Of a stretch of 64,000 nt of DNA, positions 2,994-64,000 are shown one piece after another. The stretch covers positions 3,732,775 through 3,796,774 of the forward strand of contig OZ014418.1 of the NCBI GenBank assembly GCA_963965975.1, read 5' to 3'. The position numbers and the translations under genes were made by a program. How positions within the stretch are numbered: the stretch's first letter is position 1; each line of letters starts with the position of its first letter. The notes below the pieces were generated by a model. The model was not told the DNA's origin. It saw only the letters and a program-made list of their open reading frames with translations, and ran no database searches. The stretch comes from Xestospongia bergquistia (lineage: Eukaryota; Porifera; Demospongiae; Haplosclerida; Petrosiidae).

Positions 2994-3734
2994 AGGCTTT
3001 GTCTTATTGGGCTCTCCTATAGCCCCCCCCCCCTCCTTCAGTAATTCCTTTGTGCTAAGGAGAGTGACAAAACTAAAACACACTCTTTCTTTCTTACATG
3101 ACCTACAGGACTCGCAAATGGAAACAACACTCCTTAAGTCCAGTCTTGCCTTCCCCAAAATATCCTTCTCCCTCAGAACTTGCCCTCCCTCCTATATCAG
3201 AGACACCACTACCTCCTTCGACACTGTTATATTCGAATCCCTCTCTGATCTGGTGGTTGGCCCTCTACCAGACTGGTCTTGGACCAAAGCTTGTCTCCCC
3301 ACCTCTCTCGGTTGCCTCAGCATCCGCAGGGCCTCTGTACACTCCCCCACTGCTTATATTGGCTCAATCTCCTCCTCCCAGCTTCTGGTGTTGGAGATTC
3401 TGGGATATTACCCTAATCACTCTTCTCAGCTTACAGAAGCTTTTTGCGAGTTTTTGTTCTCATCCAGGCACCTAGAAAGGTCTTCACCTGATGCTATTCA
3501 CTTCCTTCTCTAGCAACACCATCTTTCCAGAGCCATCAACCACCTTTGACTCCCTCCTCTCAAATGCTACTTCCTCACATCTGATAGCTCTTGCCCTGTC
3601 CTCTGCTATCCCCCATGCAGGAGATTGGCTCAATGTGATCCCCTTTTCTTGCCTTAGGTCTCCACCTCCATGATCAAGAGTTTCGTCGGTGCCTCCAGTA
3701 CTAGCTCGGTCTCAAAATGTTCTCTGTTGGTTTA

Positions 3735-13487: not shown

Positions 13488-14095
13488 CAGTAGACCCTCG
13501 GTTATCCGAACCTTGCACATCCATCACCTCGAATATCCGATTTTTTTTGGAAGAACACACCCACGACACCATACCATGTGGTACCTAACTTAGTCACAAA
13601 TGGAAGTTGCTCCTCCTGCAAAAAAAAGAAAAAGAAAGGTCCTTACCATCAACCAAAAGCTGGAGATAATAAAAAAACTCGAAGCTGGTACTTCACAATC
13701 TAAAATTGGTGAAGAGTACGATATTGGGCAATCTACTGTTCTAGATATCAAACAAAACAAAACAAAACTAGAATCGTTTTCACGGAAAATGGTTGACATG
13801 GGAATGAATAAAGGCACAAAGATAATGAAAGTTGGTGAATATGAAAAGCTCGACCAAGCTTTATATGTCTGGTTTAAACAAGAAAGGGAGAAAAATACAC
13901 CTATCACTGGGCCAATAATCGCTGAAAAGGCCAAAGTTCTGTTCCCTTTACTTTATCAAGAAACAAGCAAACCTTTTAAAGCAAGTCAAGGATTTTTGTG
14001 GCACTTTTGCAACACGGAGTAAGGGAAATTAGCATTCAAGGGGAAAAATTGTCAGCAGATATGGTTGGGGCTACTGTTTTTCAAGAGAAGTAATG
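13488..14095 (+). mobile_element. Tigger/pogo DNA transposon, 5' fragment
   Basis: The left terminus CAGTAGACCCTCGGTTATCC follows a TA target dinucleotide, as in Tigger elements of the Tc1/mariner superfamily. It carries the first part of the transposase. The right end is not found: no inverse of the terminus occurs before 14600, so the copy is truncated near 14095. Confidence 0.8.
13600..14022 (+). pseudogene. Tigger transposase, CENP-B-type DNA-binding region
   Basis: The frame begins MEVAPPAKKRKRKVLTINQK and contains LEIIKKLEAGTSQSKIGEEY and IGQSTVLDIKQNKTKL, the first CENP-B/pogo helix-turn-helix. YEKLDQALYVWFKQEREK, PITGPIIAEKA and FKASQGFLWHFC form the second helix-turn-helix (CENPB HTH). 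A frame change follows, with ISIQGEKLSADM in the next frame. The DDE nuclease core is missing entirely. It would bind DNA at most. Jerky-like host genes share this fold, but the flanking terminus marks it as a transposon. Confidence 0.8.
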
Positions 14096-15000: not shown

Positions 15001-16960
15001 GTGACAACTTTAACTAATGTCCTGAAACTAAACTACAAATTACTCCTCCCACTAAAAGGAAGAGAATTAGATGTGCATATAATGATGCATGGAAATCCAA
15101 TCCATGGAGCAAACCATATCCAGCAGGAGGTAAGGACTATGCTTGGTGTACGTATTGCTCTAAGTCTGTCAACATCAAAGCTGGTAGTAATGAATTTAAA
15201 AAGCATTCTTTGACAAAAGCACATAAAAAATGAAAAATCAATTCTTTCATCTACTTCACTCACTTCCTTAATAAATCAACATGATGTTGTGCGAGGAGAG
15301 ATTCTTATTGCAATATTTATTGCTGAGCATCATGTAGCTATAAGAGCTGTTGATCATTTGACAGAATTAATTAAAACCATATGTCATGATTCTAAAATAG
15401 TGAGTAAAACGAGATTTCATAGAACCAAAGCAACCACATTGATCCAGGTTATTGCAAGTGACATACAATCCTTGTTGATATATAAAGTCTGTAATTTCTT
15501 CAGCATTGCTTTTGATGAAACTACCGATGTGAGCACTACCAAGATTGTGGTAACCATGCCAAGATATTTTGATGAAGCCTGTGGCTCTGTGAATACTATT
15601 CTGTACAAGATTGATGAAGTACCAATTGCTGATGTAGAGACTTTATTTAATGTTCTTGACACTAACCTTACCAATGATTTGTTATCTTATGAGAAAATTG
15701 TGAGTGTAAGTACCAAAGGAGCTAAAGAAATTCAGTTACATCACGACTAATAGTGAAACAACCAGCTATATTTTCTTTACATTGCCCATGCCATGTCAGT
15801 GCTCTCATTTCATCTTATGCAGCAAAAAAGCTACCTAAGGATATTGAGGAACTTGTGTGTGATATTTTTTCTCATTTTAGTATGTCACCCAGACAAAAGT
15901 TCCTGTTTACAGAGTTTAAAAATTTGTTGAGTGTAAACCACACAAGTTGCTACATGCTACATAAACTAGGTGGCTGAGCTTGCAGCAAGTATTTGACAGA
16001 ACTTTAGAGCAATACCCTGTCCTTGTGTCATACTTTAGCAGTTATGAGAAAGAGTTCGTTTCAGTTATAAGAATTCATTCTCAGCTTTAAAATCATATCA
16101 CAAAATGTTACCTACTCTTTTTATCTGAAGCTCTGCCAGTTCTTAATAGCTTTAACCTTTTAATACAAGCTGGAGGGATTACTATACACCTCCCTTATGG
16201 TGAAATGTAAATGCAGTATCAAAAGATTTTGATGGCTTTTCTCAGACATGATGTTGTAGTTCTAGTTTCTCAAGGCTCGTTAAAAGACCTTGAAGAATGC
16301 CTTCATACAATTTCTTAAGATTAGAACATTGCGATATTGGTATTAACACTGAAGCTTACCTTCAAGAGTTAGTTGAAGGTGAGGGAAATGAAGAACAGAG
16401 AAGATATGTATCTGAGAGAGAAATCCAACAAGTTTGTGAGATCTGTGTGGAGTTTTGGATTGAATCTGCCTGTCAAACAAGGAAATGACTTCCTTTTAAT
16501 AATGCATTAATCAAAAATTTAGAGTGGCTACAACCACAGGCAGTATCAAGATTAATTGCTATTAGCAAGCAGGTAATAGAATGTGCTAAATGTTTGCCTA
16601 ATGTGGTTCAAACAGTTGAGATAGCACCATTAAAAAGAGAATGTACAGAATACCTGTGCACTTCCATCAATAGTGACAGTGACATTATTCTTGACAAATT
16701 CTGGACAAATGTATCTGTGATCAAGAATCCTGCCAATTTGCTTCGCTTCCCTTTGCTTAGTAAACTGGCTAAGGGACTGCTCATATTTTTCCATAGTAAT
16801 GTAGATTCAGAGCGTCTCTTTCTCAGTATAACTTGAGTAAGACAAAGCACAGGAATAGACTTAGTACTAAAATGATAAATGCACTACTTTGTATCGAGAC
16901 AAACATCAAGTCTGATTGCTACAAGTTTTCACCCACCAAATCACTTTTAAGAGCCTCCAG
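15001..16960 (+). pseudogene. hAT transposase (several broken frames)
   Basis: Pieces in order: GRELDVHIMMHGNPIHG with a BED-like finger (15040-15215); FIAEHHVAIRAVDHLTELIK and CHDSKIVSKTRFHRTKA; then FFSIAFDETTDVSTTKIVV holding the first catalytic aspartate region (15289-15750); SLHCPCHVSALISSYAAKKL (15753-15977), the CxxH region; and PLLSKLAKGLLIFFHSNVDS then ERLFLS (16740-16836), the dimerisation motif. At least four frames are needed. This matches hAT transposases of the type with a DESTD motif. It is inactive as read. Confidence 0.75.
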
Positions 16961-17829: not shown

Positions 17830-20800
17830 AAATTAATGTCTACAAGATTAGTACATCACATTAGTCAGTTACAAATTGGAACGTCTAGTGATGATGCAGC
17901 AATGGGATTGGTCCTTTACTTTTCGATTGTAATGGTGATAGAGAAACATCATGTAGCATTCATCACAGTACAGTGCAGAAAGAATAATTCCCAAGTAGAA
18001 AAAGAAGCTCTTTCATTATTATTTGATATAAAACAGGTCCACTAATACTTGTACAGCAGAAGTTTTATATTAATAACAGATCATAAACCACCCTCCTAGA
18101 CTTGTTGCTGCCAGATTGCAACGGTAGGATATTTTTTATCTGCCTATACTTATGACATTGAATGTCAATACACTCTGTTATGTACTAATACCAACACCTT
18201 CTCAAGATTGCTATTAACTTTACAAAAAGGTTCAGCAGGTTCTTTTCACACTACACACAGAAATCTGTGAATCATGATGGAATATAATAGAATGTGTTGC
18301 AAAAGGAGGTAAAATGCTGAGAAAGAAAGCAAATGAAAATAAAAAAATATTGATCGAGGTAAAACAAAGTCTAGAAGAATGTTAGTAATGTGTCTTAAAA
18401 ATTTGGAGAAAAAGAGATATAGGGCAGTAGTCAGAGAAACCCATCGCTTTCATTTCACATACTTTGACACCCGCATAAAAAAAATTATTCGCAACTGGAG
18501 AAGGAAGGTCTGGCGGTGGTATTTGCTGTTAAAAAGTTCCATCAGTTTTTTTTAGGGCGGAAATTTATCATATATTCAGATCATCAACCTTTGAAGTATT
18601 TGTTCAGTGAGAACCACCCATGTCCCTCAGATGGCTGCTCCTAGGATCCAGCGATGGTCTCTATTCTTAAGCTCTTATCAGTATGTTATCAAATACTGAC
18701 CTGGTCACAAGATTGCCTATGCTGATACTTTTATCAGACTACCTATATCTGACAAAAAGTTAAATTTTAGTTTTGAGGGTGGAGAGGTTGTTAATTTCCT
18801 TCTTAATCATCTTTCAGAAGCAATAATTACAGCATCCCAGATCAGACACTGGACCAGTAAGGATCAAATTCTCTTTTGTGTACATCATTTCATTCTACAT
18901 GGTTGGAATACCAGTAATTCTGGTGATTTACAACCTTCCTTTTATTGTTGAAATGAATTAAGTGTCGCGGACGGCTGTGTACTATGTGGGTCACATGTCG
19001 TGATTCCACCTCAGGGTCATGCCATTGTGTTAGAACAACTTCATGACACTCATCCCGGCACCAATCGAAAGAAAAGTTTGGCTAGATCTTATGTCTGGTG
19101 GCCGCATCTTGATTCTGATATTGTTACTAAAGTAAGACATTGTCACATTTATCAAAACAATCGTTCATCACCCTGAATGTCTTTACACCCATGGGATTGG
19201 CCTATTAGACCTTGGGCAAGATTACATATAGACCATGCCGGACCCTTTCATGGTAATCTTTTTCTAGTAGTTGTAGATGCACATTCCAAATGGATAGATG
19301 TTCAGATAGTGAAATCTACATCTTCCAATTCAACAATTGCAGTGTTACGTTACCTTTTTGCCACACATGGCCTTCCAGAAGACATAGTATCAGACAATGG
19401 ACCTGATTTTAGAAGTTCTGTATCCAGCTTCAAACAAGTTGGCTGAATGTGCTGTCTAAACATTTAAGCATGCTGTCTTAAAAATAGAAGGACACATGGA
19501 ACTTAGGTTAGTTTGATTTTTGTTGAAATACTGTGTAACACCTCAGACTACCACAGGAGTTTCACCTTCTGATCTATTAATGGGAAGATGACTCCACACA
19601 TCATTAGATTTACTACATCCAGACACTTCATGCAAAATGTCATAGAAACAAGACAAGTTGATTAGGAATAAAGCTCCTCATAAGTTTGAAATTGGTGACA
19701 CAAAATATTTCCATGAAACGGAATGGATACCTGTTACGGTTACAAAAGTCACTGGTCACTTTCAGATTGAAACACTGGCATTGTCCTAAGACGTCATGTT
19801 GACCATCTTAGACGTAACTATTCTGACCATATTTCACAGGAACCAGTTGAAGATTGGTGTATGTCAGATACGTTCACTCCAAATCCAGACCCTCCTGCAG
19901 TTCAAGTTGATATACCACCACCTGCACAAGTTCGTCCAGTTGCTGTATGCCATTCTACTCATGTACCTCGACCTGTTGATCATTTTGCACCCCTACTTCA
20001 AACTTAAGAGGGGGAAATGTGATAATTATGAATATGGTAATAATGTATAATATTTATGTATCCCAGAATATTCTACAATAAGCCAGGCCTGGGGTAATAG
20101 TAATATGTAATAGTAATAGTAATAGTAATGATCACATTTTTTCAAGTAATAGTAATAGTAATAATAATATATGTTTGAAAATAGTGGTGTAATAGTAATA
20201 GTAATAGAATGGAAAGTAATATGTAATTTCATATTACATCTCTATTACATTCCTGTTTAGTCCTATGTTGTGTTAGTTAGCAATTTAGCATATGTCTCTG
20301 ACTCTCTGACCAGTTAGCAAGGTATAGCAAGGTATTTTCTGACCTGACAGGTGCTCCCTGAGTGACTCTGTATTTCAAAAACTAATCACCATAAAATGCA
20401 ATGGACATGTTAGTGATGTTACAACTGCTTGATTTAATTTTTTAAATACAAATTACAAAATCTTAACCCTGTCGTGAAGTAATAGTAATAGTAATAGACT
20501 TCAAAGTAATAGTAATAATAATATATTACTATGAACTTAGCCAGTAATATAAATAGTAATAATAATATATTACTATGAACTTAGCCAGTAATAGTAATAC
20601 TAATAGAAAAATTTTAAAGTAATAGTAATAGTAATAGATTACTTTGCAATGTAATTGACCCCAGGCCTGCAATAAGCACATGTATCTATTGTGTGAGCAC
20701 GTTTTGGAGCAGTGAGCTCTGTTTTTGCCATGTTGACTCTCTCTCTTGATTCTTATATATGTGCTGTTAATGTTGAATCAATCTCAGTCAGATTACAACA

Positions 20801-25561: not shown

Positions 25562-27248
25562 CTGTAAAGTATTAATATTAGCGTGCAACTAGTTTAAGCG
25601 ATATTAGTGATTTGAAAAAAATCGCTAAATTTAATATTCGCTAAAGTTAAGAGCGAGTCACGTGCGTTGAAAAAGAAGAAGTGTGCAAACTGAACAGCGA
25701 AAGTCATGTATCTTATAAGATGGCCTTGTGGGTCATCATCGTCAGAACTAATGAGGATGGAGTAACAACAGCTGCAAACAAAGAGGTTGAAAGGTGAAGC
25801 AAGTGTGAAGGAAAAGGGGCAGGTATCATCATTATGATGATGAAACACGTGTTAAAATTGCCAAGTACTCGTGTGAATGTGGAATAAGGCAGATGCTGAC
25901 AAATTCACTAAGGAGCTTGGATTTTTGGTTACCGAAAGTACAGTAAGAAACATGAAAAAGAGCTACCTTTCTATACTTAGAAAGGAGAAAGATCCTGAGA
26001 GAATACAGTCTTCCTCATGGATCTAGAGGGAGACCACTGATGCTTCGTGATTATGACCAGGATGTATCAAACTACATCAAAAGCCTAAGAGAAGCAGGAG
26101 GTATTGTAAATTGCTCAATAGTTGTTGCTGCAGCTAAGGGTATCTTGTCCCATAAGAACCCAGGACTCCTGAAAGAACATGGTGGTCCAATCTGTCTTAG
26201 TTCAACCTGAGCAGAATCATTCCTTCGTAGAAATGGGTATGTGAAGCTCAAGGCCACCAAGGCTGCCCACAAGTTGCCTGACGATTTTTCAGAAGTAAAG
26301 CAGGCATTCCTTCAGAGAGTCAAGAGTGAAGTTGAAACATGGAACATTCCACATGTCCTCATAATCAATTGGGACCAAACTGGATCCAAGTTAGTTCCAG
26401 TAAGTGAATGGACCATGGAAAGGGAAGGCACAAAACAAGTTGCTACCATAGGACGGGAAGATAAAAGGGAAGTTACTGTTCTTATGTCTGTAACTGCTTC
26501 TGGTATTCCACTTTCATTTCAAGTCATCTATCTGGGAAAGACAATTGGGTGCCATGCTAAAGTCACATTTCCTAACGATTGGAACATTACTCAGAGTGAC
26601 AGTCACTGGAGCACTGAGTCAAACATGTTGGAGTTTATCGACAAAGTTATTGTACCTTATGTTACACAGACAAGAGAAAAGCTCCAGCTTGCTTCAGACC
26701 AGCCAGCTCTTGCTTTATTTGACATTTTCAAGGCAGATCGCTGTGAGTCTCTCCTAGAAAAGCAACATCAACATCATATCCATCAAGTGTTCATACCAGC
26801 AGGATGTACAGGGGAGCTACAACCCCTCAATCTTACTGTTAATTCATTGTGTAAAGCATCTATGAAAGCTCACTTTTCCCGTTGATATTCTGCTGAAGTC
26901 AAAGAAGCTTTAGAGCAAGGACAAGAAATAGCTAATGTGAAGGTTGACCTTTGAGCTACAATTGTGAAACCTCTGCATGTGCTTTGAGCTTCAATTGTGA
27001 AACTGGCTATTGATGGCATTCTCATTTCTCAAAGAAAAGAAAGATATCATAGAAAAAGGATTTGAGAAAAGTGGAATTTTGAGTTCCATTGCAATTACCA
27101 ATACTTGATATACTCATAAAATGCAATTTTGATACTTTTGATAACAGTACTAGTAATTGTTTTTAACAACATTAAATTTTAAAGCCACTAATATGGTAAT
27201 GAAGCAAAAATGCTAAAAAAGTAGCCGCCAACATCAGTAGTTTTACAG
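25562..27248 (+). mobile_element. Pogo-like (Tc1/mariner superfamily) DNA transposon, 1.7 kb
   Basis: TA is present at both edges (25560-25561 and 27249-27250). Ends are CTGTAAAGTATTAATATTAG on the left and its imperfect inverse on the right (CTGTAAAACTACTGATGTTG when read inverted). Further inverted similarity includes TTTTTAGC-like blocks. The transposase reads from about 25735 to 27060. Length and structure are whole-looking, but the coding region has frame changes before 26241 and after 26885. Confidence 0.8.
26241..26885 (+). pseudogene. Pogo-like transposase DDE domain (third acidic residue changed)
   Basis: The 214-residue frame covers the nuclease: NIPHVLIINWDQTGSKLVP (first Asp, residue ~44), EWTMEREGTKQV, VTVLMSVTASGIPLSFQVIY, HWSTESNMLEFIDKVIVPY, ALALFDIFKADRCESLLEK (second Asp, ~159) and FIPAGCTGELQPLNLTVN. 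The family normally has LQPLDVTVN here; the D is N at about residue 198, so the catalytic triad looks broken. Upstream, in other frames, are KFTKELGFLVTESTVRNMKK (about 25890) and further N-terminal pieces. The M at 26241 is not the native start. Confidence 0.75.
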
Positions 27249-41139: not shown

Positions 41140-42560
41140 TTAATAGTTCAGCTCGTCCTCCAAATTGTGTTGCTCAACTCCATGCAATATGTGCATTCCT
41201 CAAGGAGAAATGGATTTAAAAGGATCTTCACAAACCAAACAACCTGGACCTGGTATCTAGACCAATTCTTAAAGTACATGAAGTGGACAAAGAATTTACA
41301 TTACATGTTAATACATCAGATCAGGGCTTAGTCAAGGGAATACCAATGGCACTTTTCATATCATGCTTATGCAAGCAAAAAACTGCTCAGTAGACTCACA
41401 AGTTAAAATATGTAGTCATTGAGAAGGAGTGTGTTGCAATTATCTTGGCATTCAAATTCTTTAATGCCTAATTGTATACAGACAGATGTTTAAACTGGTT
41501 ACTGATCAAAAGCCTGGTTGGACACAATCCTTGACTCACCAGATATGATGATATCTCCCTGCAACAACATACTTGTTATGATGTATGAAATTTCTAGGAA
41601 TTGATAATATGATCTCAAAGGTCCGTCTCAATGAATGCCTGAGCTTAAGGGAAGAAGTGTAACAAAGCAATTAAAATGATTATATGTGTACAATGTTTCA
41701 CATGTATCTCAGTTAACTTTGTAATGACATTAATGTAATGTTTTTTGTCAGTACCCCTTCATTAAAGTCAAAGTATTAAAGTTTCTCTATGAGGGAGGAA
41801 ACACTAACGCACCACTTTGTGACATTAATTTATCACATGATTTAGTCAAATACATGTCTACTAGACCATAAATATTGTCAAGAAATGGCTCTTCAATTTT
41901 TCTGCTAATATTTATTTCTACTTTATAACTGTTCTAGTGGAGAGATACGTACACTAACAGTATCAAAAAATGGAAATAACTCAACTGTTTATATCACTAC
42001 AGTATGGGGAGTCTATTCTCAAGTTAACTCATGAAATTCCTAGATCAGGCCACATAGGAAAGCATGCTATTAATCGAATTTTACAGAGATTCTACTGGCA
42101 GACAGTGTTTTAACATTTTGTAAAACATGCCCAGAATGTCAGAAGTTTGTAGATTGAAAAACACCAAAGGTACCATTGGTATCTTTATCTATTTTGCAAT
42201 TTGTGCCTTTTAGATGGATTACAATGGACATTGTGGGATCTCTAACAAAAAGAACATCAGGCAACAAATACATTCTAATCATTGGTGATTATAAAACCAT
42301 TAACCAGACCCTATCACCCACAGATAGATCGACTAGTGGAACAGTTCAATCAAACACTTCTGGAAAAGAGTCAGAGTAACCAGCAAGCCTGGTATGATCA
42401 CAATGCATAACTACGTGAATTTACATGTGGATATGAAGTCTTACTTTTGTGGCATAATAAAAAAATTATTTCTTGTGAGGATCAATGACAAAAATCACTC
42501 CCATGTTGTGCACATGGAGAAATGTGGCAAAGGAAAGACATGTTGATTTTATGAGGGGCT
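41140..42560 (+). mobile_element. Gypsy-class LTR retrotransposon D, pol remnant
   Basis: RNase H-like pieces (KEFTLHVNTSDQGLVKGI near 41290; VVIEKECVAIILAFKFFNA near 41415), an integrase zinc-binding piece near 42030-42150, and the start of the integrase core (FRWITMDIVGSLTKRTSGNK near 42209) are in order. Neither LTR was recognised. Heavily broken and old. Confidence 0.6.
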
Positions 42561-45536: not shown

Positions 45537-47110
45537 TGTCACGGTAAAATTGGTCCGGTAAAAAAACGGTCCGACAGGCCATAAAAAATGACCCGGTGAC
45601 ATAAAATTTTTGGTCCGGGGATAAAAAAATTAGTCCACTACAGTCTGCGCATGACAACACGTTTTAAAACGTTTAATATCTCAAGATGCTGATGGAGAAC
45701 GAGCTCGTTGAACAAGTTTACACATATATTACCACAGGAAGGTATCCAAATTGCACAGAAAGCAGAAAACGTGTGATCAGGAAGAAGTCTAAAAGGTTCG
45801 TTGTTGAGAATGGAGAGTTATACTATGTGCAGAGGAAAAATCAGGTTTGATGTGACATTTCTAATTTTTTTTAAATTTATTAACCTATGTGTATAGGATA
45901 ACTGCCTTCTAAGGTTTATCTTTTCTAAAGAAGAACAACAGAAGGTTTTATTGAGTTGTCACATAGACCCGACCTCAGGGCATATGGGAAAAACACAGAC
46001 CATAATACAGAATTAAAGAAAGATTTATGTGGCATGGAATTGTCAAAGATGTTGAAGGAATGGTCAGTATTAATTTTTTAGACATAATTTATTAATACTC
46101 ATAATTAGATTGCAAAATGTGATGTTTGTCAACGAATGAATAGGAAGATGACAACTGGTGCTCCACAGCTACATCCTGTACCAGTTAAATCACCATGGTA
46201 CCATATTGGTATTGATTTCATTGGTCCATTGACACCAGTTGCACAAGATGGCAGCCAATACATACTAACAATATCTGATTATTTCACAAAATGGGTAGAA
46301 GCTGTGGGAACACCTGATAAACTTGTTAGTACTGTTGCAATTACGTTATTCAAGGTATAGATATTATTATTTTTATATAATTGTCATCATTATTCCCATA
46401 CCTCTCTAGTTATTTATGCGTATGGGACTACCAAGTGTAATTACGTCAGATCAGGGCAAAGAGTTCAATAATAGACTGGACAAGACATTAATGAACCTAT
46501 TAGGAATAGAGCACAGACTAACAACACCTTATCATCCTCAGGTAATGTTCAAATTCTTATTAGGAATTTTAAAGTACTCTGATTTTAGGCAAATGGTCTC
46601 GATGAATGTTTCAATCAAACAATCCAAAACATGTTGGTAAAGTTTGTTCATTCGAAGAAGACTCATTGGAGTTCCTACCTTGACACATGCTTTTTTGCAT
46701 ATAACACATCATAGTATTATTTTTTTTGTAAAAAATTATGACTGTAAAGGTACATATGATGATTTATTATAGTTGTACCAAGCACACTTTACAAACATTT
46801 TTTCAGGTAAAGCCTGTATTAACCAACAATAGTATTATACTTTTGTAAAGAAATAAACAATGAACAGTTAATCATTATGATGACTGTGTGTTGTTGATTG
46901 GGTGCTACCATCATGTAGGACCAGTCTGAGGACTGAAATTTTTGGACCCTGTGACAAACCATTTTTTTCAAGGTAGGACCAATTTTACATGGAGAACTGG
47001 TCCTGGGACCAATTAAAATTAATGGTCCGGGAGACCAAAAATTTCAGTCCTAGGACTGAAATTTTTGGTCCCCTGGGCCTTTTTTGAGAGATGCTGTTTT
47101 TTCAGTGACA
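45537..47110 (+). mobile_element. Ginger-type DNA transposon, deletion derivative (copy 1)
   Basis: The ends TGTCACGGTAAAATTGG (45537) and ...TCAGTGACA (to 47110) share the TGTCAC terminus. A perfect 4-bp duplication GACA flanks them (45533-45536 and 47111-47114). Subterminal repeats of GGTCC / GGACC, such as TTTTTGGTCCGGGG and GGACTGAAATTTTTGG, crowd both ends. The interior holds the integrase exons but lacks the C-terminal third of the integrase, the ULP1 protease and the PHD finger found in copy 2. Termini, 4-bp duplication and intron-containing integrase fit Ginger1. Confidence 0.85.
45686..46700 (+). pseudogene. Ginger integrase, zinc-binding and DDE core (copy 1)
   Basis: Exons: 45686-45844 (MLMENELVEQVYTYITTGRY; WENGELYYV-like end VENGELYYVQRKNQ); about 45897-46071 (CHIDPTSGHMG, the HH pair); 46109-46354 (CDVCQRMNRK, the CC pair; YHIGIDFIGPL, first Asp); 46410-46541 (PSVITSDQGKEFNN, second Asp; TTPYHPQ); and from 46589 (ANGLDECFNQTIQNML, with the catalytic Glu). 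Introns have GT/AG ends at the same places as in copy 2. A frame change lies in the HH exon, and the frame ends soon after FFAYNTS. Family role: cut-and-paste transposition by an integrase related to those of Gypsy elements. Confidence 0.8.
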
Positions 47111-48290: not shown

Positions 48291-48368
48291 GTGTGGTTAG
48301 TACATTGCTTTTCATTTGTGAACTTCATACACTCTGCTCTCTTTACTGACTCAAGACAAGCTCAAACG

Positions 48369-51300
48369 ATGAATACTCCTATCAACAAGATAACCTCTAG
48401 TGTGTTCTTGACTCCTCCTTCATCGCTGTACAAAAATAGTCAAGAGATAACAACTACAGCTCCTCTCTCACCACCCCCTGTCTTTTCTCTTCTAACACCA
48501 ACTAAAGCTGTTTCAACAACAGAAGTTGTGGATTTCATCTCTCTACTCTACCCTTCATTCCGCCACATCAGTGACCAGATTTTGTCAAGTCTTGATCCAG
48601 TTGATCTCACTAACTGTCTTTCTATCTGTAAGAACTGGAGGCAGGCTGTAATCTCAAACAAGAACTGTGCACAAAAGATCAGAACTTCCAGAAAACTAAT
48701 CAAGAAAGATTCTGAAACTATTCACCACATTAAATCCACATTACAAACTTTACCACAACCTCATAGAGCATTTGGAACAACATCTATTAATGTCATTACC
48801 ACTAGTACTGTCTCTATGGAGTCTCTAAAAGTCACTTACAATACTATCACTGCAAATTCCATTACCAATCTAAGATCTTGTTCCAAGTGCAGTTCTCCAG
48901 CTAGAAAAATCAATGTTCATAATGTTCATTGTAATTTCTGTGATTACAACTTCTGTTGTCAATGTTTCAAGTCATCACATAAACAGAGCTGTACAAGACC
49001 ACTTAGTCTTAAGAGACCTGTCACGCAAAAATTGAACCGGGGAAAAGTGTGGACCCCCGGTCTAATTTTGGTAACGCCAAAACCGGACCCCCATTGCCAA
49101 AATAGATCCTTGTATTCACACGTTCTATCACGTGGCTGTTATAAGTAATGGAAGATTATATAGTTGAAGATATTGATTTAGTTGATAGTGCATTTCTCTA
49201 CTTAACTCAGTTTCAATATCCCAATGGATGTAGTGATGCTCGCAAGAGAGCTATTAGAAAGAAAGCTGGGATGTTTATTATATGGGATGGAGAGATGTTT
49301 TTCAAGAAGAAGAAAAAAGGAAAGGTAATGATGAAAGTGAAGTCTTTTGTTGATTTACAATATTAATTTTATTTTTAAAGATAGTTGAGCTTCGATTTAT
49401 AAGAACAAGAGAAGAATAGTTGAAAATACTTAAAGCATGTCACATTGATGCAACTGCTGGTCATATGGGGGAAAAAAACTATTGGTAGGATTATGGAGCG
49501 ATTTATGTGGACTGGAATAGTCAATGATGTAAAGAAAATGGTAATGTTATATAACTATAATATAGCTATTTAAATGATCTTGTGAGAAATGTGAAAGTAT
49601 GTGTCATCAAAAACCTCTAGTCATTTAAGGGCATTTCATTTTGTTTCTAGATATCTTCATGTGATGTCTGTCAACGAGTAAATCGTAAAGTGATGAATCA
49701 AACACCAGAGTTACATCCTGTTCCTGTGAAAGCTCCCTGGTATCATGTTGGTATCGATTTCATTGGCCCAATAAGACCAACTTCCAGGCAAGGAAATCGA
49801 TATATATTAACCCTAAGCGACTATTTTACCAAGTTTGTTGAGGCTATCCCACTCCCTGACAAATGTGCATCAGGTGTTGCAAAGGCCCTTTTTAAGGTAT
49901 CATTAGATATTACAATTAAAAGTACCAATATAAATTAATGAATGGATCCTACATACTTGATGCATTCAATTTTTTACTCTGTTAGATCATTATGAAGATG
50001 GGAATCCCAAGAATAATCACAACTGACAATGGTAAAGAATTTAAGAATAATTTGGATGATGAGTTGTCTAAACAATTGGGAATTAAACGTATTTTGACAA
50101 CTCCTTACCACCCTCAGGTATTTAGAAAACCTGTAGTTTTGGTCAATCTTTTTTGATCTTTTTACAGGCAAATGGACTTGATGAAAGGTTTAATCAGACC
50201 CTTCAAGGAATGCTAGTTAAATTTGTCCTGGACAAAAAGGATGTGTGGGATGACTTTCTTGACACATGCACATATGCCTACAATACTTCGATTCATGATT
50301 CCACTGCCTTTACTCCATTTGAACTCATATTCGGTCGCAAAGCCTTCCTCCAATTGACCTCGAAACAAAAGTCCAGAAGAGCTATTAGACCACCAATCTA
50401 AGGAAAAAGATGACATTCAAGCTGTTCAAGCAATCACTAACCGTAGGCTAAAGAAACTTCAAGTAGCTGAAAAAAATATCAAAAAAGTACAAGAGAAGCA
50501 AAAAGAAATTTTTGATAGAAAGCATGCTCGTCCCAATGCCTTTGCAGTGGAAGGAAAAGTATTGATGAAGGATATGAGAAGGAAAAAAAGAGCAGGAGGA
50601 AAGATGGATGAACACTACATTGGTCCATATGTCATTACCAAACATTATGGTAAAGGAATTTATTCCCTTCAAGGAGTTGATGACCCAGGTGAAATAATTC
50701 CAAGAGTTAGTGGTGCTCAACTAAAACCATACATAGACCAGTCTGATGAATATGTAAGCTTGGTGAATATTGTATATTGTTATATATTATGATTTATGAA
50801 ATATTTTGTAGCATACTGATCGACTTCTTGACGACTCTATTCCTCCTCTGCCTCCTCCAATAGCACAACTAACCTCTCACAATAAAAGTCAAAGTCAGAC
50901 TAGCTCTTTTGATAAGCACGTAAGTCCTGTTATTGGTTGTTGGATAAAAAACAAATGTGATAACTTGTTTGTGCTCTTGTAGGATGAAGCATTCAATGAT
51001 ATCTCAGCAAGTTTCCTAAGTAGTACTCTAATAATTTGTGGAGGATTTTTCCCTGATTTTTTCCCTAATGGTGATATGGTCATGTCACCAATAAGACATG
51101 ATACCTCCACACCCTTAAAAGCAGCGAAACCCAGACCAGTTACACTTAATGATACAACAGAACCATCTTCTCAGCCACAATTTAAACCCTCAATGTCTAG
51201 TAATACAACCCAACCATCTTCTCAGCCACAACCTAAGCCAATAATGTCTATAGCTACGTCTGATGATAAGACACAACCATCTTCTCAATTTCAACCCAGG

Positions 51301-52690
51301 GTAGTTACATCTAACAGTAAGATGAAGGAATGTCATTGCTTGGTTAAGAATGTAGTGAAACTACACAGGCAAGAAAGAAGAGAGAAATGTAAAGTGAAGA
51401 TTATGGATCCTAAAGCTGATGTTATAGATGCTGATATGTATAAACCTAGAAGTAAGTCACCCAAGAAATGGATTCCAGAGCTTGGCTTTGATCTTACAGA
51501 CAAGAAGATTCTACTCTCTTCTACAGAGTGGTTGAATGACAATATTGTCAACGCTGCACAGAAATTACTGAAAAAAGTTAATCCTGCCATGTCTGGACTT
51601 CAAAATGTTAATCTTGGTCTGACAATGAGCTTTAATGTTGAGCCTGGGGAGTTTATCCAAATTTTACATGATGGTTGTAGTCATTGGCTGACAGTTTCGA
51701 CAGTTGGATTAAAACATCCTGAAGTGCATGCTTTTGACAGCCTTTATACATCTACATCTACATCAACAAAGATGCAAATCTCAAATATACTTTATTCTGA
51801 CAAACCAACCACAACAGTTTCATTCAAAGATGTTCAAATGCAGTCTGGCTTTTCAGATTGTGGGCTCTTTTCCATTGCTTTTGCAACTGCATTGATCTTT
51901 GGGAGACAACCTGGAGAATTCATGTTTCAACAAAGAGAAATGAGATCTCACCTCATTCAGTGCTTGGAATCTCGTTCGATGTCCATGTTTCCCATATTAA
52001 GGCTCAGACGTGTTACTAGAAAAGTCAAGTCGACTGACGAAGTAGATATTTATTGCATTTGCAGAATCCCTGAATTCACAAATTCTCAATGGATTCAATG
52101 TTCAGGTTGTAAAGAGTGGTATCACTCAAATGTCTGTGTGAAAGTGGATGAAAAATATTTTGAACTCAAAATTGGCCTGGTACTGTTTTAGGTGTAATAA
52201 TAATTAGAAACTTTATTTTCATAATTGTAAACTGTACAAAATCATCGAATTTACTTTATTGTACAAAATGTTTTTTGCCTAACCAAAATCGAAACCAGTC
52301 CATGCACTTTTGGCTAACCTAAAATGCACCCAGTCCAGTTTTGGTCAGCCATAACTGAACTGGGTCCACTTTTGGCTGCCCTAAAATGGACCCAGTCCAG
52401 TTTTGGTCAGCCAAAACTGGACCTGGTCCACTTTTGTCCGACCAAAACTGGACCGGGTCCACTTTTGGTAAGATGGGTCCACTTTTTGCTGCCAAAACTT
52501 GACCCCCGGTCCAATTTTTTCTGCCATAATTGGACCCCTAGGTCCAGTTTTTTTCCTGGTCCAATTTTTGCGTGACAGACCAGCCGAGTCTGACTCTATC
52601 ATTGGCAGCAAGAAGAGCAAAAAAAAGATTAAGAAGACTTTAGTTTTGTATTTGTTATATCTATTGATGTTTTCTTTGTATTTGTTTTAA
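48369..52690 (+). CDS. FBXO5: Emi1/FBXO5-like F-box protein, split by a Ginger transposon
   Basis: The coding block 48369-49018 is followed, after the 3.56-kb insertion, by 52582-52690. From the ATG at 48369 (MNTPINKITSSVFLTPPSS; an in-frame ATG also lies at 48291) there is a Ser/Thr/Pro-rich N-terminus and then an F-box (ISDQILSSLDPVDLTNCLSI, CKNWRQAV). The zinc-binding region is CSKCSSPARKINVHNVHCNF, CDYNFCCQCFKSSHKQSC, spaced as in the IBR-like ZBR of Emi1/Emi2. The part beyond the insertion reads PAESDSIIGSKKSKKKIKKT and then L, matching the basic tail KKSKKNLRRL of vertebrate Emi1; the frame runs 16 codons further to TAA at 52688-52690. Emi1-family proteins inhibit the APC/C in the cell cycle, using the ZBR and tail. 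In this allele the reading frame runs past the ZBR into transposon DNA for about 43 codons (stop at 49146-49148), so the tail is lost. Symbol by similarity only. Confidence 0.7.
49148..50753 (+). pseudogene. Ginger integrase (copy 2), near-complete with a few breaks
   Basis: Exon 1 reads MEDYIVEDIDLVDSAFLYLT and WDGEMFFKKKKKGK. Exon 2 has ILKACHIDATAGHMG (HH) and, after an A-run indel, RIMERFMWTGIVNDVKKM; a stop precedes LKILK. Exon 3 has CDVCQRVNRK (CC), WYHVGIDFIGPIRPTSRQG (first Asp) and LTLSDYFTKFVEAIPLPD. Exon 4 has PRIITTDNGKEFKNN (second Asp) and TTPYHPQ. Exon 5 has ANGLDERFNQTLQGML (Glu), YAYNTSIHDSTAFTPFELIF, then two small frame changes near 50350, and a coiled linker (RRLKKLQVAEKNIKKVQEK) with a chromo-like or SH3-like end (YIGPYVITKHYGKGIYSLQG). 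Integration gives 4-bp duplications in this family. The conserved triad D-D-E is intact. Confidence 0.85.
50983..52191 (+). CDS. Ginger C-terminal region: ULP1-type cysteine protease plus PHD finger
   Basis: An open frame runs from exon 7 (DEAFNDISASFLSSTLIICG). From the M at 51076 it has Pro/Ser/Gln-rich repeats (TQPSSQPQPKP, residues 35-75), then a C48 protease fold: STEWLNDNIVNAAQKLL (~146), GCSHWLTVST with the catalytic His (~202), VHAFDSLYTS with Asp (~220), VQMQSGFSDCGLFSIAFA with the oxyanion Gln and Cys (~262). A PHD finger follows: YCICRIPEFTNSQWIQCSGC, KEWYHS. Its last cysteine pair (WYCFRC) lies in the next frame after one indel, so the annotated stop at 52189-52191 cuts the finger short. 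The protease may process the transposase or remove SUMO-like modifiers; the PHD may read histone H3. Both roles are inference from the folds. Confidence 0.85.
   Translation, partial: DEAFNDISASFLSSTLIICGGFFPDFFPNGDMVMSPIRHDTSTPLKAAKPRPVTLNDTTEPSSQPQFKPSMSSNTTQPSSQPQPKPIMSIATSDDKTQPSSQFQPRVVTSNSKMKECHCLVKNVVKLHRQERREKCKVKIMDPKADVIDADMYKPRSKSPKKWIPELGFDLTDKKILLSSTEWLNDNIVNAAQKLLKKVNPAMSGLQNVNLGLTMSFNVEPGEFIQILHDGCSHWLTVSTVGLKHPEVHAFDSLYTSTSTSTKMQISNILYSDKPTTTVSFKDVQMQSGFSDCGLFSIAFATALIFGRQPGEFMFQQREMRSHLIQCLESRSMSMFPILRLRRVTRKVKSTDEVDIYCICRIPEFTNSQWIQCSGCKEWYHSNVCVKVDEKYFELKIGLVLF
52290..52577. repeat. Right TIR and subterminal GGACC/CCAAAA repeats of Ginger copy 2
   Basis: About ten copies of a ~20-base unit of the form 'CCAGTCCAnTTTTGGnCnnCC' are arrayed head to tail, then the TIR. 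Similar but fewer units follow the left TIR (49035-49100). They may be transposase binding sites, as in other elements with repeated subterminal motifs. Confidence 0.8.
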
Positions 52691-54024: not shown

Positions 54025-55982
54025 TTTTTTGTTGTCTATGTCCAGTAGTTGTCTATATTGATGCCTTTACTCATGAGCCATTTTAATATGTCAATAGTCT
54101 CAACAAGCTTCAGATTTACAAGGCTGAGACATGATAAGCTGATCAGTACTAATTATTATCCAAAGTCACAGTCATAATAAGCAGTTGTTGATGCCCAGCA
54201 TTAGATGTAGATAAACCTACTATAAAAGAGATCAAAATAGACAGTAATATATATAGTATAACAATTACTATGATACAGTTATCATATTGTCATTTCAAGC
54301 AGTTAAAGGACATCAATTCAATTAAACAACAACTACAGTATGAAAATGAAATCAATAGTACAAGATCATGCAAATTTGCATTAGAAAAGATGTCAGGTAA
54401 ATTGGCAGATGCCACATAATTTAAATATGAAGTCAAAAATTGATGCCAAATAAAAATTCTTAGATGTCAGTTTAACAGCTGATTAAATATAGGTGCCTAG
54501 CAAAATTCTAAGACACAGGATAAACCTTGATGATAATTAAATCAAAATGACAGTTTAAAATGTAGATTCATGTTAGATATTTGCATGTTTTGGGGCCAAG
54601 CAGCCATATCAACAGAGATGCTTGAATGTAGTGAAAATTTTATGCCAAATAGATGAAAGGTAAAAAGAACATCCAAAAATTAGAAGCCAGATTGAAAACT
54701 TTAATGTAAGAAAAAGAATGAAAGGAGTGTATATGTCATATATACAAACAATAGTAACCAGTGTTACCAGTTGACCCATCAAAACTAAGTGAAATATATA
54801 GTTTAAATCATGTTTTACTAATAGTATACTATATGTACTGTTAATTATAAAATAGTAGATATAGCATGTAGGGAACACACAATGAACAAAACAATACATA
54901 GTTTTAATGATGCATGCGAGCGCGAGTGTGTGCAGTACATTACCTCTGTGGGTTACATAGAGCAAGACCATATACATTATGTTTTTAGGGAGATAAAACA
55001 CACTCTATTGTACAACTGTATAGGACTAAACAGGGATTATATAAAATAATGAACACAATAATAAGGAAAACATAAGTACATATTAATTAGTTCATTTTGC
55101 AGAAAATAAGATCACATAAAATAAAATACTGAAGTTATTTTCATACAAAAACATTAAATAAATAATAGCAGAGTCATGATGGTCACAGGACCTCAGAAAA
55201 TTTCTAGATGGCAGTAAGACAATGAAAATAACAGACAAAATATTTAGAAAAGGCCGACATAAATACATCAAAATAGTAAAATGACACAAGTGGTTTTTTG
55301 TCAGGATTATACAACAGACAAGAGAAAAACATTATACAACAGACACAGAATGTTAATTAACAAATTGGAGCCAGTTATATGATAGACACTGCCAGTCAAA
55401 AGGAGAATAACAATTTAGGATAGTTCAACAAGACACAACATATCAAAATTATACAATACACACTAAGGGAAACAATTAAGAATTAAACATCAGACACAAA
55501 AAGTTTAATAATTCAGTATATGCATGTTGCTTTTGGTCATACAAAAGGAGATATTAGTTCTGGACTGGTCTGTTGTCAATATTTCCTTTACTATTGACAT
55601 CATATTCATTAATATTTCAGGATGCTTTGTTAATGATTATCAATGACACCCTTGTTCTAATTGTTATACTTGGAGAATAAATGTTTGTTATTTTGTGCAT
55701 TAACATCTGACATTTTATTTATTAATGGTTATATCTCTTCTCTCTTATCCTCAACGTAACTGTAACTGTGGCAATTAATGACAGTTTAACAACAATGAGT
55801 TTAGGAATTTTTTACTTCACATCTAAATTATCTAGCATCTGCCAATTTACCTGGCATCTTTTCTAATGCAAATTTGCATGATCTTGTACTATTGATTTCG
55901 TACTGTAGTTGTTGTTTAATTGAACTGATGTCCTTTAACTGCTTGAAATGACAATATGATAACTGTATCATAGTAATTGTTA

Positions 55983-56227: not shown

Positions 56228-58334
56228 CAGGAAATTTGGCACCCCAGGAAATTAGGTACCCCCATTCCAAATATTGTAGGATATTTTGCACCCCCTTAGG
56301 AAATTTTGCACCCCTTAGAAGTTTGGAATTTCAGTACCCCCATATAAAATATCTTAGGAAATTTGGTACTCCCTCTCAAACAAACTATCGTGGAACAGGT
56401 TATATAGATTCAAGTATTTATATCAAAATTAATAGCCAATGTCATTTTCTTTGACTACAATAATTATTATATAGCTTTAAAACAATATACAGTAAAAGTT
56501 ACCAAAATCAAATTAGATAAAACTTATGTAAATGGATGTGTCATTTAGTACAGTTTTCACAAAACCCACTAAAGTTATCTATAGTCCAGACCTGTTCAGG
56601 TATATGTTCACATTCCTTATGGAACCATTCTTCACATCCGTCATATCCCACCATAGGTTCCTCTTCTAATAGTTTGCAGTGGCAAAAACTTGTACCTTTC
56701 CTAACGTTTAATTATCTTGGCATACTTCCTTACTTTTGTAGGAAAATGTTTCATTTGCTGGTCCTCCAGACAGTCATATAGATGTCGTCCATCACAGTTG
56801 TGTCAAACTGAAGCCCCTCTGGTTCCTGTCTATTACAGATTGTCATTGCATAAGCAATGAAAAAAGCCCACACTCACATCCATTCTTCCACTGTTGTACA
56901 TTGGCATACTGAATAGTAATGCTGTCTTCAGTGGAATGAAGAAGGGATGTAATCTGCAGTATTGCTGAGTGTGGTAATCTGGAACCCGAGCTGTCATATA
57001 CCTTCACAGTAGAATTTGGAAGGCCGAATGTGCTAATAGTAAGCCAATGGCAGCCATTATTGAGCCACACCCAACGAGTACCGGTGTCATAGGAAAACCA
57101 ATCCTTACCCAGATCTTCTGCAATGGTGTATGGACCACTTTTAAACTTGATTTCAAGTTTTCCACCCTTTCGGTCTTCATTTTTCATTGATTGCACAAGC
57201 ACTTTGTCTCCAACCTTAAGTTTGGTGTTTGTGTTGTGCTTTGCATCATACTGCTGCTTTTGATGGCTTGTGGTTTCTGTATATTGCTAAGTTCATTTTC
57301 ATGCAACGTCTTCTGTAGATCCAACATTTGTTGCACCTTGGCTGTTAGGTCAAGTTCTTGCTCTGGTTGTGAGTCACTACTACCTATGTGTGGAGTAAGA
57401 TCTATTGGAAGCCGAGCTTCTCTACCATACATCAACAGAAATGGTGTGCATTTTGTTGAATCATGTCGGCTTCTGTATGCGGAAAGAATGTTATCTAGAA
57501 GCTCATCCCAGTCATCTTGATGCTCATTAACAAGCTTTTGAAGCTGCGCTTTAAGTGTTTGATTGAAACGTTCATCAAGGCCATTGGATTGAGGATGGTA
57601 TGCACTTGTAATTTTGTTCTTGAATCCAGTAAGTTCTTTAATCATTGTGACAAGCCTCAAGGACCTTCAGTTTTGTCCTGCTATCTGATACAACCTGCAT
57701 TTAATATTTAAAGTAGTTTAACAGATAACAAAACATACACACATGAATATGCACTGTATGTTACATTATTGTAGTATATGAATCCATGCTATCAACAATG
57801 GATGCAATTAAAATAAAATTTTACTGATACATATCCTTATGCTACTGAACTTTATTATCAAAACTGCTAACCTGTCGTAGACTTCCTCTCTGGCTTTTGT
57901 AATGAAGAATTTTTTGCTCTCTTTCTAATGATGCATTTATCCTGCTTGGTGCTTTCTGGTGGATAGCAGTGTTCTGAGAGATACAGGTGAACCTCTTCGT
58001 AGATTGACTCCTCTGACTTGATCTCGTTCTAGCTCATGTCCTCTTTGATTTTTTTGTTCATATCTCCACTGATGACTATTGGGGAATCTAGATCGCTTAT
58101 ATAGCATTTCATAGCATAAAGTATACAGCTTTTCGATTGGCTCTCTTCTCCTTCTGTACAATTAGTCTCTTCTTCTGTACAATTAAGGCCTAGGGTTTGG
58201 GGGTTCAATTTTTCCTAACGCGTACTATTAGGGATGCCAAATATCCTTAGGAAATATTGAATGAGAGTGCAAAATATCCTAGGATATATTACACGGGGAT
58301 GCCAAAATTATGGGATGTCATATTTCCTATGACA
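56228..58334 (-). mobile_element. Ginger-type DNA transposon (copy 3), internally deleted, minus strand
   Basis: The right end reads, inverted, TGTCATAGGAAATATGACAT (58334 inwards), with subterminal blocks of 'taGGAtATTTtGCA..CCC' (58190-58330). The same blocks fill 56230-56380 at the left (AGGAAATTTGGCACCCC and on). The left tip lacks TGTCA because the foldback element begins exactly there. Coding runs on the minus strand: an integrase with the core deleted, then part of a ULP1-like protease. No duplication can be scored because the left tip is missing. Confidence 0.7.
56843..57960 (-). pseudogene. Ginger copy 3 integrase C-terminus and partial ULP1-like protease
   Basis: Minus strand: exon near 57955-57875 (INASLEREQKILHYKSQRGS), then after TTAAATGCAG a piece VVSDSRTKLKVLEACHND (57694-57641), which is the start of the HH zinc motif. 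It joins directly to IKELTGFKNKITSAYHPQSN, GLDERFNQTLKAQLQKLVNE and YGREARLPIDLTPH (57650-57190), so the zinc cysteines and both core aspartates are deleted. A frame change near 57200 leads to LEIKFKSGPYTIAEDLGKDW and the protease piece GCHWLTISTFGLPNSTVKVY, DSSGS, then CECGLFSLLMQ (His, Asp and Cys visible). It ends at 56843. Confidence 0.75.
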
Positions 58335-58929: not shown

Positions 58930-59830
58930 CACACACAGAAGACTGCCCAGCCACCAATGGCTTAAGAATGACAAGTTAATTACAAAATAAGATAAAGTGA
59001 TGTGATATAGATAAAAATTTTGGATTAAGTAATAAACTTACTGTGACTATACAAACATGAAAAAAAAACAAAATTAATGATTGCAAGACTAAATTCGATT
59101 TTAAAATGGACATTTCATTAAGATACAATGATGACATTATGACATTGGTCTAATATGCAGTACTTTAGTTTTATTGATGTTCATAGCTAAACCACACCAT
59201 GTAGCTACTCTACAAATAAGCTGTTGTAAATCGTTTTCATTATTGGAAAACAATGCAATATCATCAGCATACTGAAGGATACACATAACTATGTACTCTT
59301 CTGCATTTACTCCTAAATTTAAATTTTTAACATAGGGAACTAAGTCATTAATATATAAATTAAAAAGTGCTGGAGATACGAGGCAACACTGTTTGACACC
59401 CCTATTTACTGTAAACCACTCAGTGCCAGTACTATTTATTTCTAAACAATAATTAACTCTAGAATATAATGCTTTAAGATTTTCTAACAAATTACCATAA
59501 CATAACAACTTATACAAAAGTAAATTCCTATCTACACTATCAAATGCCTTCTTTAATAAAACATATAAATGTATTTTTATTGATAATTTTCTATTTTGTG
59601 CCATTAAGTAAACAGTGAGATCATGCTCAAGACAATTATGACCACTTCTAAATCCTAGTTGTTCTTTTACAAGTATTTCATTGTCTTCTAGCCAGTAAGT
59701 TAATCGTTTGTTTAATATACTTGTATATGCTTTAAGTAAATTATATTGGAGGGCAATTCCCCTATAATTTAGAGTGTCTGTAAGATTACCTGATTTCGGA
59801 ACTGGTATTATAATTGCTTTATATCATAAA
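58889..59830 (-). mobile_element. LINE remnant, YADD reverse transcriptase, (AAT)n tail
   Basis: The minus strand from 59830 reads IIIPVPKSGNLTDTLNYRGI, QLGFRSGHNCLEHDL, then the clean frame 59604-59137 (155 codons): KKAFDSVDRNLLLYKLLCYG (motif A), VNRGVKQCCLVSPALFNLYI (motif B, where families have G.RQGC.LSP), ILQYADDIALFSNNENDLQQ (motif C, both Asp kept) and MNINKTKVLHI. The first Asp of motif A is replaced (YVLLKKAFD). The element ends at an (ATT)n tract at 58889-58925, which on its own strand is an (AAT)n 3' tail. It is 5' truncated at about 59830. The clade is probably CR1/Jockey-like; not certain. Confidence 0.8.
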
Positions 59831-62033: not shown

Positions 62034-64000
62034 CTAATGGACATTCAATAATACAAAGACATTAAACCCTCTACATAATGTTATAAAGTGGGAAACAAAT
62101 GTACCTCCTTTTATAAGATACTGTATAATAACAGTAGCCAATGACTTCTCTTGAAGAGGTCCTTCTATAATGTTGATGATGTTTTTCCAAGTAGTTGGGG
62201 TTGGTTGGTTATTGAGCCAATTCTGAAGTGTTTTTGACAACTTTACTTGAGGAGAATCATTTGTAGCATGCAAACCATCAAGAGTATTATAATCAACTCC
62301 AAGTAAGCCACCAATCTCATACCATTTAGAAGAAACTGGAGATAGAAACTTTAGCAGAACATGGCCCTGTGGCTTTGAATCTGTGACAAGGTAAAGATAT
62401 ACTTATTTTGCAGGTACAGTAACTTTAATAGAGTTAATGTAACTCATAAATTTTAACATCTGATCCTGTTAACCTTTTAAAGAAACAAGCTTTTTAAATG
62501 TATATTAAAACTTTTCTTTATGAAAGACACTAGCTGCTAGTTAACTTTCTACATCACTTTAGACATTATATATATAGGTTGCTATGATAACATCTAAATT
62601 AGCCAGTTGCATTGAGTTAGCACTATTAATTATGTCAACAAATCCATTAATTCATTAGAATAGCATGTACTCTGTGCATAACAGCCTTTACGTTAAAAAT
62701 AGCGGGAGTTGTATGTTATAAAATAAATTGTGTCAATATAAAATAATTGTGTAAAACTGCTGAATAATTAATATCCTCACCTAGATTAGGTATCTCATCT
62801 AACTTTTCAGACACTAATAGGAGATATTATTTAATAAATCAAGTAACCACTAGAACTATACACAAACCTTCAAGGAGGAGTTGCTCAGATATACTTTCTA
62901 TATCATGTTCATTTAATGGAGGATAAGCAAGATCCTATAACAGAATATGGTATAATTATGATGGAGTACAGAATGATACATGACATTAGATTTATTGTAT
63001 GCTCAAACTAACACATACTTACCAAAGGATTTCGTCCAGCAAACACACTAAGTTGACTGCAATGCTCTTTTACTGACATGTATAAAAGTGATGATGAGAA
63101 AAAACAACATTTATTCACTATGTGTTGAAGGTCACTATGTGACAATTTAGCACTAAAAAGTGCTTTTGTGACTGAAGGAGTAATGCAAAGGAAAGGGTCA
63201 TGAACTCCCACAATCTGTTCAATACCTACCCTCTTGGTTTCGTTGTCATCTCTAACTTTACCTTTTGTAAGCACTGATCGAGCAACATCTTTTATATTAT
63301 AAAGTGTGCGTTTATCCATGAGAAGACTACGAGCTTTTCCTACATCACTAGGAGCAATGAGGTACTCCTCACATTCAAAGGAGTGCATCTGACTCTTCAA
63401 TGTTAATATGGCCTGAACAACATCATTGAAAACTTTGTGGCTTTTTTTAATGTCATTCATTGATGTAACTACTGTAACACAACGATAGTGCTCTGTCAAT
63501 TCAACAATAACTTCAATGTTATCATCGTCATTCTCCCAATAAATGCCATTTGTCCATACATCACATCGACGAGCTAACATTTGGACTTGTGGATCACCAG
63601 CAATTTTTCCAGCTTTGTTATGACGTGGAAGACAAAAAATGTAGGAAAGGCTAAAAAGGAGAAGATGAAGAAACCGTGTTGAAAGAAATTGGTTAGGATC
63701 AGGACACCAGAGGCACCATCCCAACCCATTTTCTATTTTAATATCTGTAGGGGGTTTAGCATGAATGAGGGATGGAAAAAATAACAGCTCATCTAATGGC
63801 AGAGGAACTGAAGCTGATATATTGGTTTTGAACATTTGTAGTGTATTAGCTTGCAAAACATGACAGAACTGAAGACTTCTAAGAAACCCAATTAGCATAT
63901 AAATATCATGCTTTGGAAATAATCTTTCCAGAACAGATGTAGGCACAATGCCAGTATTACTAGCAATATCTTGATGGGCATGTTCGATTTCCTTTGGAGC
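62034..64000 (-). CDS. COR-like and death-domain protein of sponge type (3' part)
   Basis: Minus-strand exons: 64000-63023 (open at the window edge), 62934-62868, 62813-62781 and 62380-62034 (stop). All junctions have GT/AG ends and phases agree (0, 1, 1). Exon 1 reads APKEIEHAHQDIASNTGIVP, TSVLERLFPKHDIYMLIGFL, RSLQFCHVLQ, FFPSLIHAKPP, CLWCPDPNQFLSTRFLHLLL, ARRCDVWTNGIYWENDD and VIVELTEHYRCVTVVTSMND. This is the winged-helix plus beta-sheet pattern of COR regions in ROC-COR and related sponge proteins. The last exon is a death domain: LLKFLSPVSSKWYEIGGLLG, DYNTLDGL, LSKTLQNWLNNQPTPTTWKN, IINIIEGPLQEKSLA. The combination suggests an innate-immune or cell-death signalling adaptor with a GTPase-like module upstream of the window. 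The final 20 residues after IIQYLIK may be out of frame if a donor at GGTACA is used. Confidence 0.75.

Follow-up and report, generated by a model that had tools for sequence, protein, structure and literature searches.

A 64,000-nucleotide stretch of the genome of the sponge Xestospongia bergquistia (GCA_963965975.1, contig OZ014418.1, positions 3,732,775 to 3,796,774 of the forward strand), called the window below and numbered from its first letter, appears to contain a gene of the Emi1/FBXO5 family whose last coding exon is interrupted by a Ginger1-like DNA transposon that separates the C-terminal tail from the rest of the coding sequence. We consider this account, taken as a whole, to be quite probable. 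An earlier note on this DNA had placed a Ginger transposon in an Emi1-like coding exon, and this is borne out by a 3,559-bp element (49019-52577) with inverted ends and an exact GACC target-site duplication (TSD; left copy 49015-49018, right copy 52578-52581). Features of the gene and the element lie on the plus strand unless stated otherwise.

The left terminal inverted repeat (TIR; 49019-49055) starts with TGTCACGCAAAAATTG, and the right one (52541-52577, minus strand) ends in TGTCACGCAAAAATTG in inverted orientation. Compared in inverted orientation, the two ends agree in all of their first 16 bases and in 19 of the first 20, and the similar arm extends over 37-38 bp at 84% likeness. A scan for TGTCA...TGACA end pairs, separated by 200-9,000 bases and flanked by a 4-base duplication, placed the element second by end identity (19/20) among the best 15 pairs. 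The top pair of that scan (20/20) lies at 54288-55953. Its ATAT duplication is set in AT-rich surroundings and carries little weight; this inverted repeat is possibly a fold-back element. Inside the right end of the transposon lie imperfect palindromic subterminal repeats, mostly 31 bp apart (52299-52536). When the element and one GACC copy are skipped, the host frame joins and reads ...SLKRPAESDSIIGSKKSKKKIKKTLVLYLLYLLMFSLYLF-stop, so the earlier claim that coding resumes in frame holds. As the sequence stands, the host frame instead runs into the transposon and acquires a chimeric C-terminus of 42 residues (49019-49148, stop TAA at 49146-49148). A transposon-coded end of this kind had been noted before with a length of 43 residues, which is reached only if the proline codon that takes its third base from the element is counted. 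The stop overlaps the ATG of the first transposase exon (TAATG, 49146-49150), probably by chance.

The host coding sequence is open from its ATG to the insertion point (48369-49018; 216 full codons plus CC). Its F-box (48570-48665) exceeds the cut-off of Pfam PF00646 (E=1.9e-5, 24.8 bits against 20.5) and that of a second F-box profile, PF12937 (25.2 bits against 24.3). It is followed by a zinc-binding region (ZBR; residues 171-208, 48879-48992) with the spacing C-x2-C-x13-C-x2-C-x4-C-x2-C-x4-H-x3-C, in which all eight zinc ligands are present by pattern test; the general form of the pattern also fits the ZBR of human EMI1. In a PDB search with the two flanks joined through the in-frame tail, human EMI1 was the best match (9gaw, E=6.7e-4; 4ui9, E=7.4e-4), followed by its fragment of ZBR and tail, 2m6n (E=0.026); EMI1 chains were the first three of 10 matches, and the match to EMI1/FBXO5 covers the host protein from residue 52 onward. 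The assignment as Emi1-like made in the earlier note agrees with these results. An AlphaFold2 model of the 216 residues, made from the single sequence without an alignment, reached a mean pLDDT of 37.8 and a pTM of 0.20, and nothing is drawn from it.

Transposase and likeness to Ginger1

Six GT-AG introns, with splice sites picked and frames compared by eye, divide the transposase into seven inferred exons. By translation, and with a GT-AG boundary placed by eye, exon 1 (49148-49324) carries a YPYY-like motif (YP...MFF at the N-terminus). Exon 2 (49381-49540) has the first half of the H2C2 zinc finger together with an in-frame TAG and a frame change, and exon 3 (49651-49896) has the second half and the first D of the DDE triad. 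The second D lies in exon 4 (49986-50117), while exon 5 (50168-50753), with two internal frame changes, contains the E and the GPY motif. Exon 6 (50812-50919) leads to exon 7 (50983-52188), which codes for an Ulp1-like protease and a PHD finger and has a frame change near the PHD end, with the last PHD cysteines in another frame. The three catalytic residues were recognized by eye in GIDFIG, TTDNGKEF and GLDERFNQT, and the GPY motif in IGPYVI. Joined, exons 3-5 match the integrase core rve at 51 bits (cut-off 32.6), and the integrases of PFV and Ty3 are among the best PDB matches of the transposase (best 60 of 106 matches). Ulp1 and PHD give weak scores in the expected order.

Ginger1 elements are described in PMC2836005 as having a gypsy-like integrase with H2C2, DDE, GPY/F and YPYY motifs, a C-terminal OTU or Ulp1 domain and, in one family, a PHD finger; their ends are TGTNR, with TIRs of about 40-270 bp and a 4-bp TSD that is CCGG in 75% and CCGT in 24%, from 112 Hydra elements. 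Common to these and to the element described here are the 4-bp TSD, TGTNR ends (TGTCA, on a similar arm of 37-38 bp), the YPYY-like motif, H2C2, DDE, GPY, Ulp1 and PHD, which together support the earlier label of a Ginger-like element and, more narrowly, mark it as a Ginger1-like DNA transposon. The nearest in domain make-up is Ginger1-9_HM of Hydra, which combines Ulp1 with PHD in 3,758 bp, with a TIR of 120 and 2 introns (Table 1 of the same paper); the two are alike in length (3.56 kb here) and were likened by description, not by sequence. The sponge element differs from these in its GACC duplication, its shorter similar TIR arm, its six inferred introns and its broken transposase frame.

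The stranded tail and its frame break

The host tail stranded beyond the element (52582-52643) reads PAESDSIIGSKKSKK in the frame of the ZBR, followed by LRRL-stop in the +1 frame. The frame appears to change at or near a run of eight A (A8; 52619-52626), and the LRRL-stop codons (TTA AGA AGA CTT TAG, 52629-52643) begin two bases after it. Human EMI1 ends with GTKKSKKNLRRL. In the ZBR frame the sponge tail reads GSKKSKKKIKKTLVLYLLYLLMFSLYLF-stop, which matches Emi1 only through GSKKSKK and beyond that overshoots the conserved terminus. The resemblance to the KKSKKNLRRL terminus of Emi1 pointed out in the earlier note is thus upheld in part: the tail is, by its sequence likeness, homologous to that terminus, with GSKKSKK in frame, but the in-frame end is unlike Emi1, its LRRL-stop being in the +1 frame.

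Two kinds of evidence bear on whether the out-of-frame LRRL is genuine. The first is its rarity, since LRRL-stop occurs once in the six frames of the whole window and was found in 4/20,000 and 7/20,000 random 120-base sequences generated under two first-order Markov models (three frames, one strand); the motif was spotted by eye before it was counted, and had been defined beforehand by EMI1 and UBE2S. The second is the PDB match obtained with the tail written GSKKSKK-X-LRRL, which strengthens to E=1.6e-5 for 4ui9 and 1.7e-5 for 9gaw, improves 2m6n to 7e-4 and extends to the final residue of EMI1, 447 of 447. The exon thus most likely once encoded a canonical Emi1 terminus, which in this sequence is parted from the ZBR frame by a frame break. 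With LRRL-stop in the other frame, an empty-site allele with the same tail would still lack LRRL. A programmed frameshift at the A8 run was set aside without test; it would require a +1 change, for which there is no independent support.

The frame break itself may reflect decay once the transposon was in place, a mutation of earlier date, or a fault of the assembly. The last of these, in which a wrong length of the A8 run hides a real tail that reads through to LRRL-stop and leaves the transposon as the sole lesion, we hold as a tentative alternative of rather less than even likelihood. The break coincides with a homopolymer, GSKKSKK and LRRL match EMI1 on either side of it, and the frame changes in the element also adjoin short runs, as judged by eye. 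Yet length errors leave the in-frame TAG of the element unexplained, and no break interrupts the host frame over its 648 bases or exon 7 over its first 1.2 kb. Such an error is compatible with the transposon insertion proposed here and would replace only its final step.

The distribution of lesions gives some indication of timing. The transposase exons, which total 2,615 bases when counted to where the open frame ends, have one in-frame TAG and four frame changes; the 648-base host frame has neither a stop nor a frame change, and the 62-base stranded tail has one frame change. These counts fit decay of both element and tail after the insertion, and fit as well a source copy of the transposon that was already broken, or assembly errors at homopolymers. 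The TAG speaks for at least some real decay, but such small counts do not decide the matter. For the tail, decay after the insertion is the favoured reading because the transposon carries similar frame changes. The Emi1-like copy thus bears two lesions, the insertion and, unless it is an assembly error, the frame break in the stranded tail, and it is probably impaired.

Two lesions in one short tail, in a neighbourhood dense in transposons, could also mark a second Emi1 copy that was already dead, a pseudogene or redundant paralogue, with its function carried by an intact gene at another locus. A second, dispensable copy had been offered in the earlier note as one candidate explanation of the site, the other being a recent polymorphic insertion. 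We regard an already dead copy as unlikely: the F-box/ZBR frame is uninterrupted over 216 codons and retains all its zinc ligands, and no second Emi1-like copy was found within the window.

Removal of the element by splicing, with a junction that shifts the reading of the tail to the LRRL frame and restores a working terminus, is given very little credence. Among 551 GT-AG combinations tried, 74 give a product ending in LRRL. The best donors of these match the consensus at 6/9 positions, and since the six inferred introns of the element itself score only 6 to 8, donors of this quality could be used. On the other side, 87 of the same combinations end in SLYLF of the other frame with an equal best donor score, which leaves no preference for the LRRL frame.

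A number of observations weigh against the proposed insertion of a Ginger1-like transposon into an Emi1 gene. The account rests on one sequence, in which the length of the A8 run is possibly an assembly error. On the side of the element, three profile matches fall below their cut-offs, namely H2C2 (15.3 bits against 25.5, the piece being given with X at the stop), Peptidase_C48 for Ulp1 (17.6 bits against 20.7) and PHD (20.6 bits against 24, or 23.9 with X across the frame break), and its TSD is GACC, unlike the CCGG and CCGT typical of Ginger1, a preference measured in Hydra; because the duplication is neither of these, the element is called Ginger1-like. On the side of the host, the IBR profile PF01485 reaches 15 bits on the ZBR, under its cut-off of 24.3, and neither an RxxL D-box nor a KEN box was found in the 216 host residues, upstream of which further exons may exist. 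RxxF and DSGxxS were likewise without a match in these residues. Unless there are further exons upstream, the lack of D-box, KEN and DSGxxS speaks against an inhibitor of fully human type, and since the D-box and KEN box were not found, the gene, which appears incomplete by human standards, is labelled Emi1-like.

These gaps, with the remoteness of the similarity to EMI1 and the low IBR score, could be taken to mean that the host gene codes for some other F-box protein, its zinc finger and the LRRL having arisen by chance. Against this stands the order of F-box, ZBR, GxKKSKK and LRRL end, which is collinear with EMI1 residues 242-447 (E=1.6e-5), along with the leading rank of the EMI1 chains in the PDB search, and we think this reading very improbable.

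The predicted product and its meaning

The element, its duplication and the split frame are read directly from the DNA, and the cut-and-paste mode is taken from the family. On the account preferred here, a Ginger1-like transposon would have entered by cut-and-paste between the ZBR and the C-terminal tail, duplicating 4 bp (GACC). Translation, if the observed open reading frame is expressed, would continue beyond the ZBR into the transposon end and terminate once the 42 foreign residues had been added. Human EMI1, according to PMC11579458, PMC5717348 and PMC6534075, uses several arms: it blocks the D-box receptor, its ZBR hinders UBCH10/UBE2C, and its LRRL, identical to the C-terminus of UBE2S (PMC11579458), competes with UBE2S. 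By comparison, the sponge product would retain its F-box and its ZBR, the arm that in human EMI1 obstructs UBCH10/UBE2C, and would lose the LRRL tail, which in human EMI1 competes with UBE2S for the APC2 site, making it a partial loss-of-function inhibitor of the APC/C. The tail, freed from selection by the insertion, may then have decayed at or near the A8 run, leaving LRRL-stop out of frame.

The likeness to human EMI1/FBXO5 consists of the F-box, a ZBR with the same eight ligands, the GxKKSKK tail and LRRL-stop in the DNA, while the sponge gene differs in its short N-terminus, in having no RxxL D-box, KEN or DSGxxS match, and in a tail that is split by the transposon and broken in frame. 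UBE2S resembles the tail only through its C-terminal LRRL; its E2 domain was not found here. PMC5717348 and PMC6534075 describe Emi1 as a metazoan inhibitor and give Emi2 and fly Rca1 as relatives of EMI1.

The kinds of gene and element involved are already known. Among the literature matches listed, judged by title or the start of the abstract, there was no Ginger insertion in an Emi1 gene and no sponge Emi1, which does not prove absence from print. The stranded LRRL-stop suggests that the arrangement of F-box, ZBR and LRRL existed in a lineage apparently distant from vertebrates, and, as human EMI1 uses several arms, a genome that keeps the ZBR and separates the LRRL tail would provide a natural test of the importance of that tail. 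The stronger idea of a natural separation-of-function allele, in which only the UBE2S-competing LRRL arm is removed and the ZBR arm is still expressed, is quite unlikely; if true, a population with both alleles would show the role of each arm in an animal distant from vertebrates. In genome annotation the gene would receive a transposon-coded end, which calls for caution.

Relatives were also sought in collections of prokaryote and of viral contigs that hold no animal genomes, so that a miss there says little. For the Emi1-like protein, 30 stretches of the prokaryote contigs fitted the pattern and 0 were confirmed, and the viral contigs gave no match; for the Ulp1-PHD exon, 21 prokaryote stretches yielded 0 confirmed relatives, and the 1 viral stretch was not confirmed.

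Other elements and genes in the window

Upstream of the host ATG, at a distance of about 1.3 kb, lies a second Ginger-like element of 1,574 bp (45537-47110), with the TSD GACA on both sides and TGTCAC ends. Between its integrase and that of the first element, identity is 64% over exon 3 and 59% over exon 4, and no match to the Ulp1 part was found in it. A third Ginger-like remnant (56798-58334, minus strand) has integrase and Ulp1 pieces, both below cut-off (rve_3 at 22.9 bits, Peptidase_C48 at 19.1 bits), and one candidate end, TGACA at 58334, after which comes CCGT, the classical target of Ginger1; its second end was not located. Further remnants are perhaps present at 19183-19443 (26% identity, E=8.6e-6) and 42110-42352 (24%, E=0.001), where exons 3-4 have weak integrase-like matches.

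Pfam matches mark pieces of a reverse transcriptase (59140-59823), a MULE/ZSWIM (5483-5962), a CENP-B/Tc5-type (13594-14019) and a DDE_1 protein (26211-26882), and, below cut-off, a hAT dimerisation piece (16489-16833). A reverse transcriptase-like piece at 2087-3513 was recognized by eye only, and the part of it that was scanned (2571-2990) had no Pfam match. The GC content is 34%, and neither Rfam, at gathering scores, nor a tRNA scan gave a hit in the window. At the far end, an exon with a Death domain (62037-62402, minus strand; 21.5 bits, just under the cut-off of 22.6) lies near a 330-residue open frame (63011-64000, minus strand) that has no Pfam match above cut-off, and the two are perhaps parts of one host gene running off the window.

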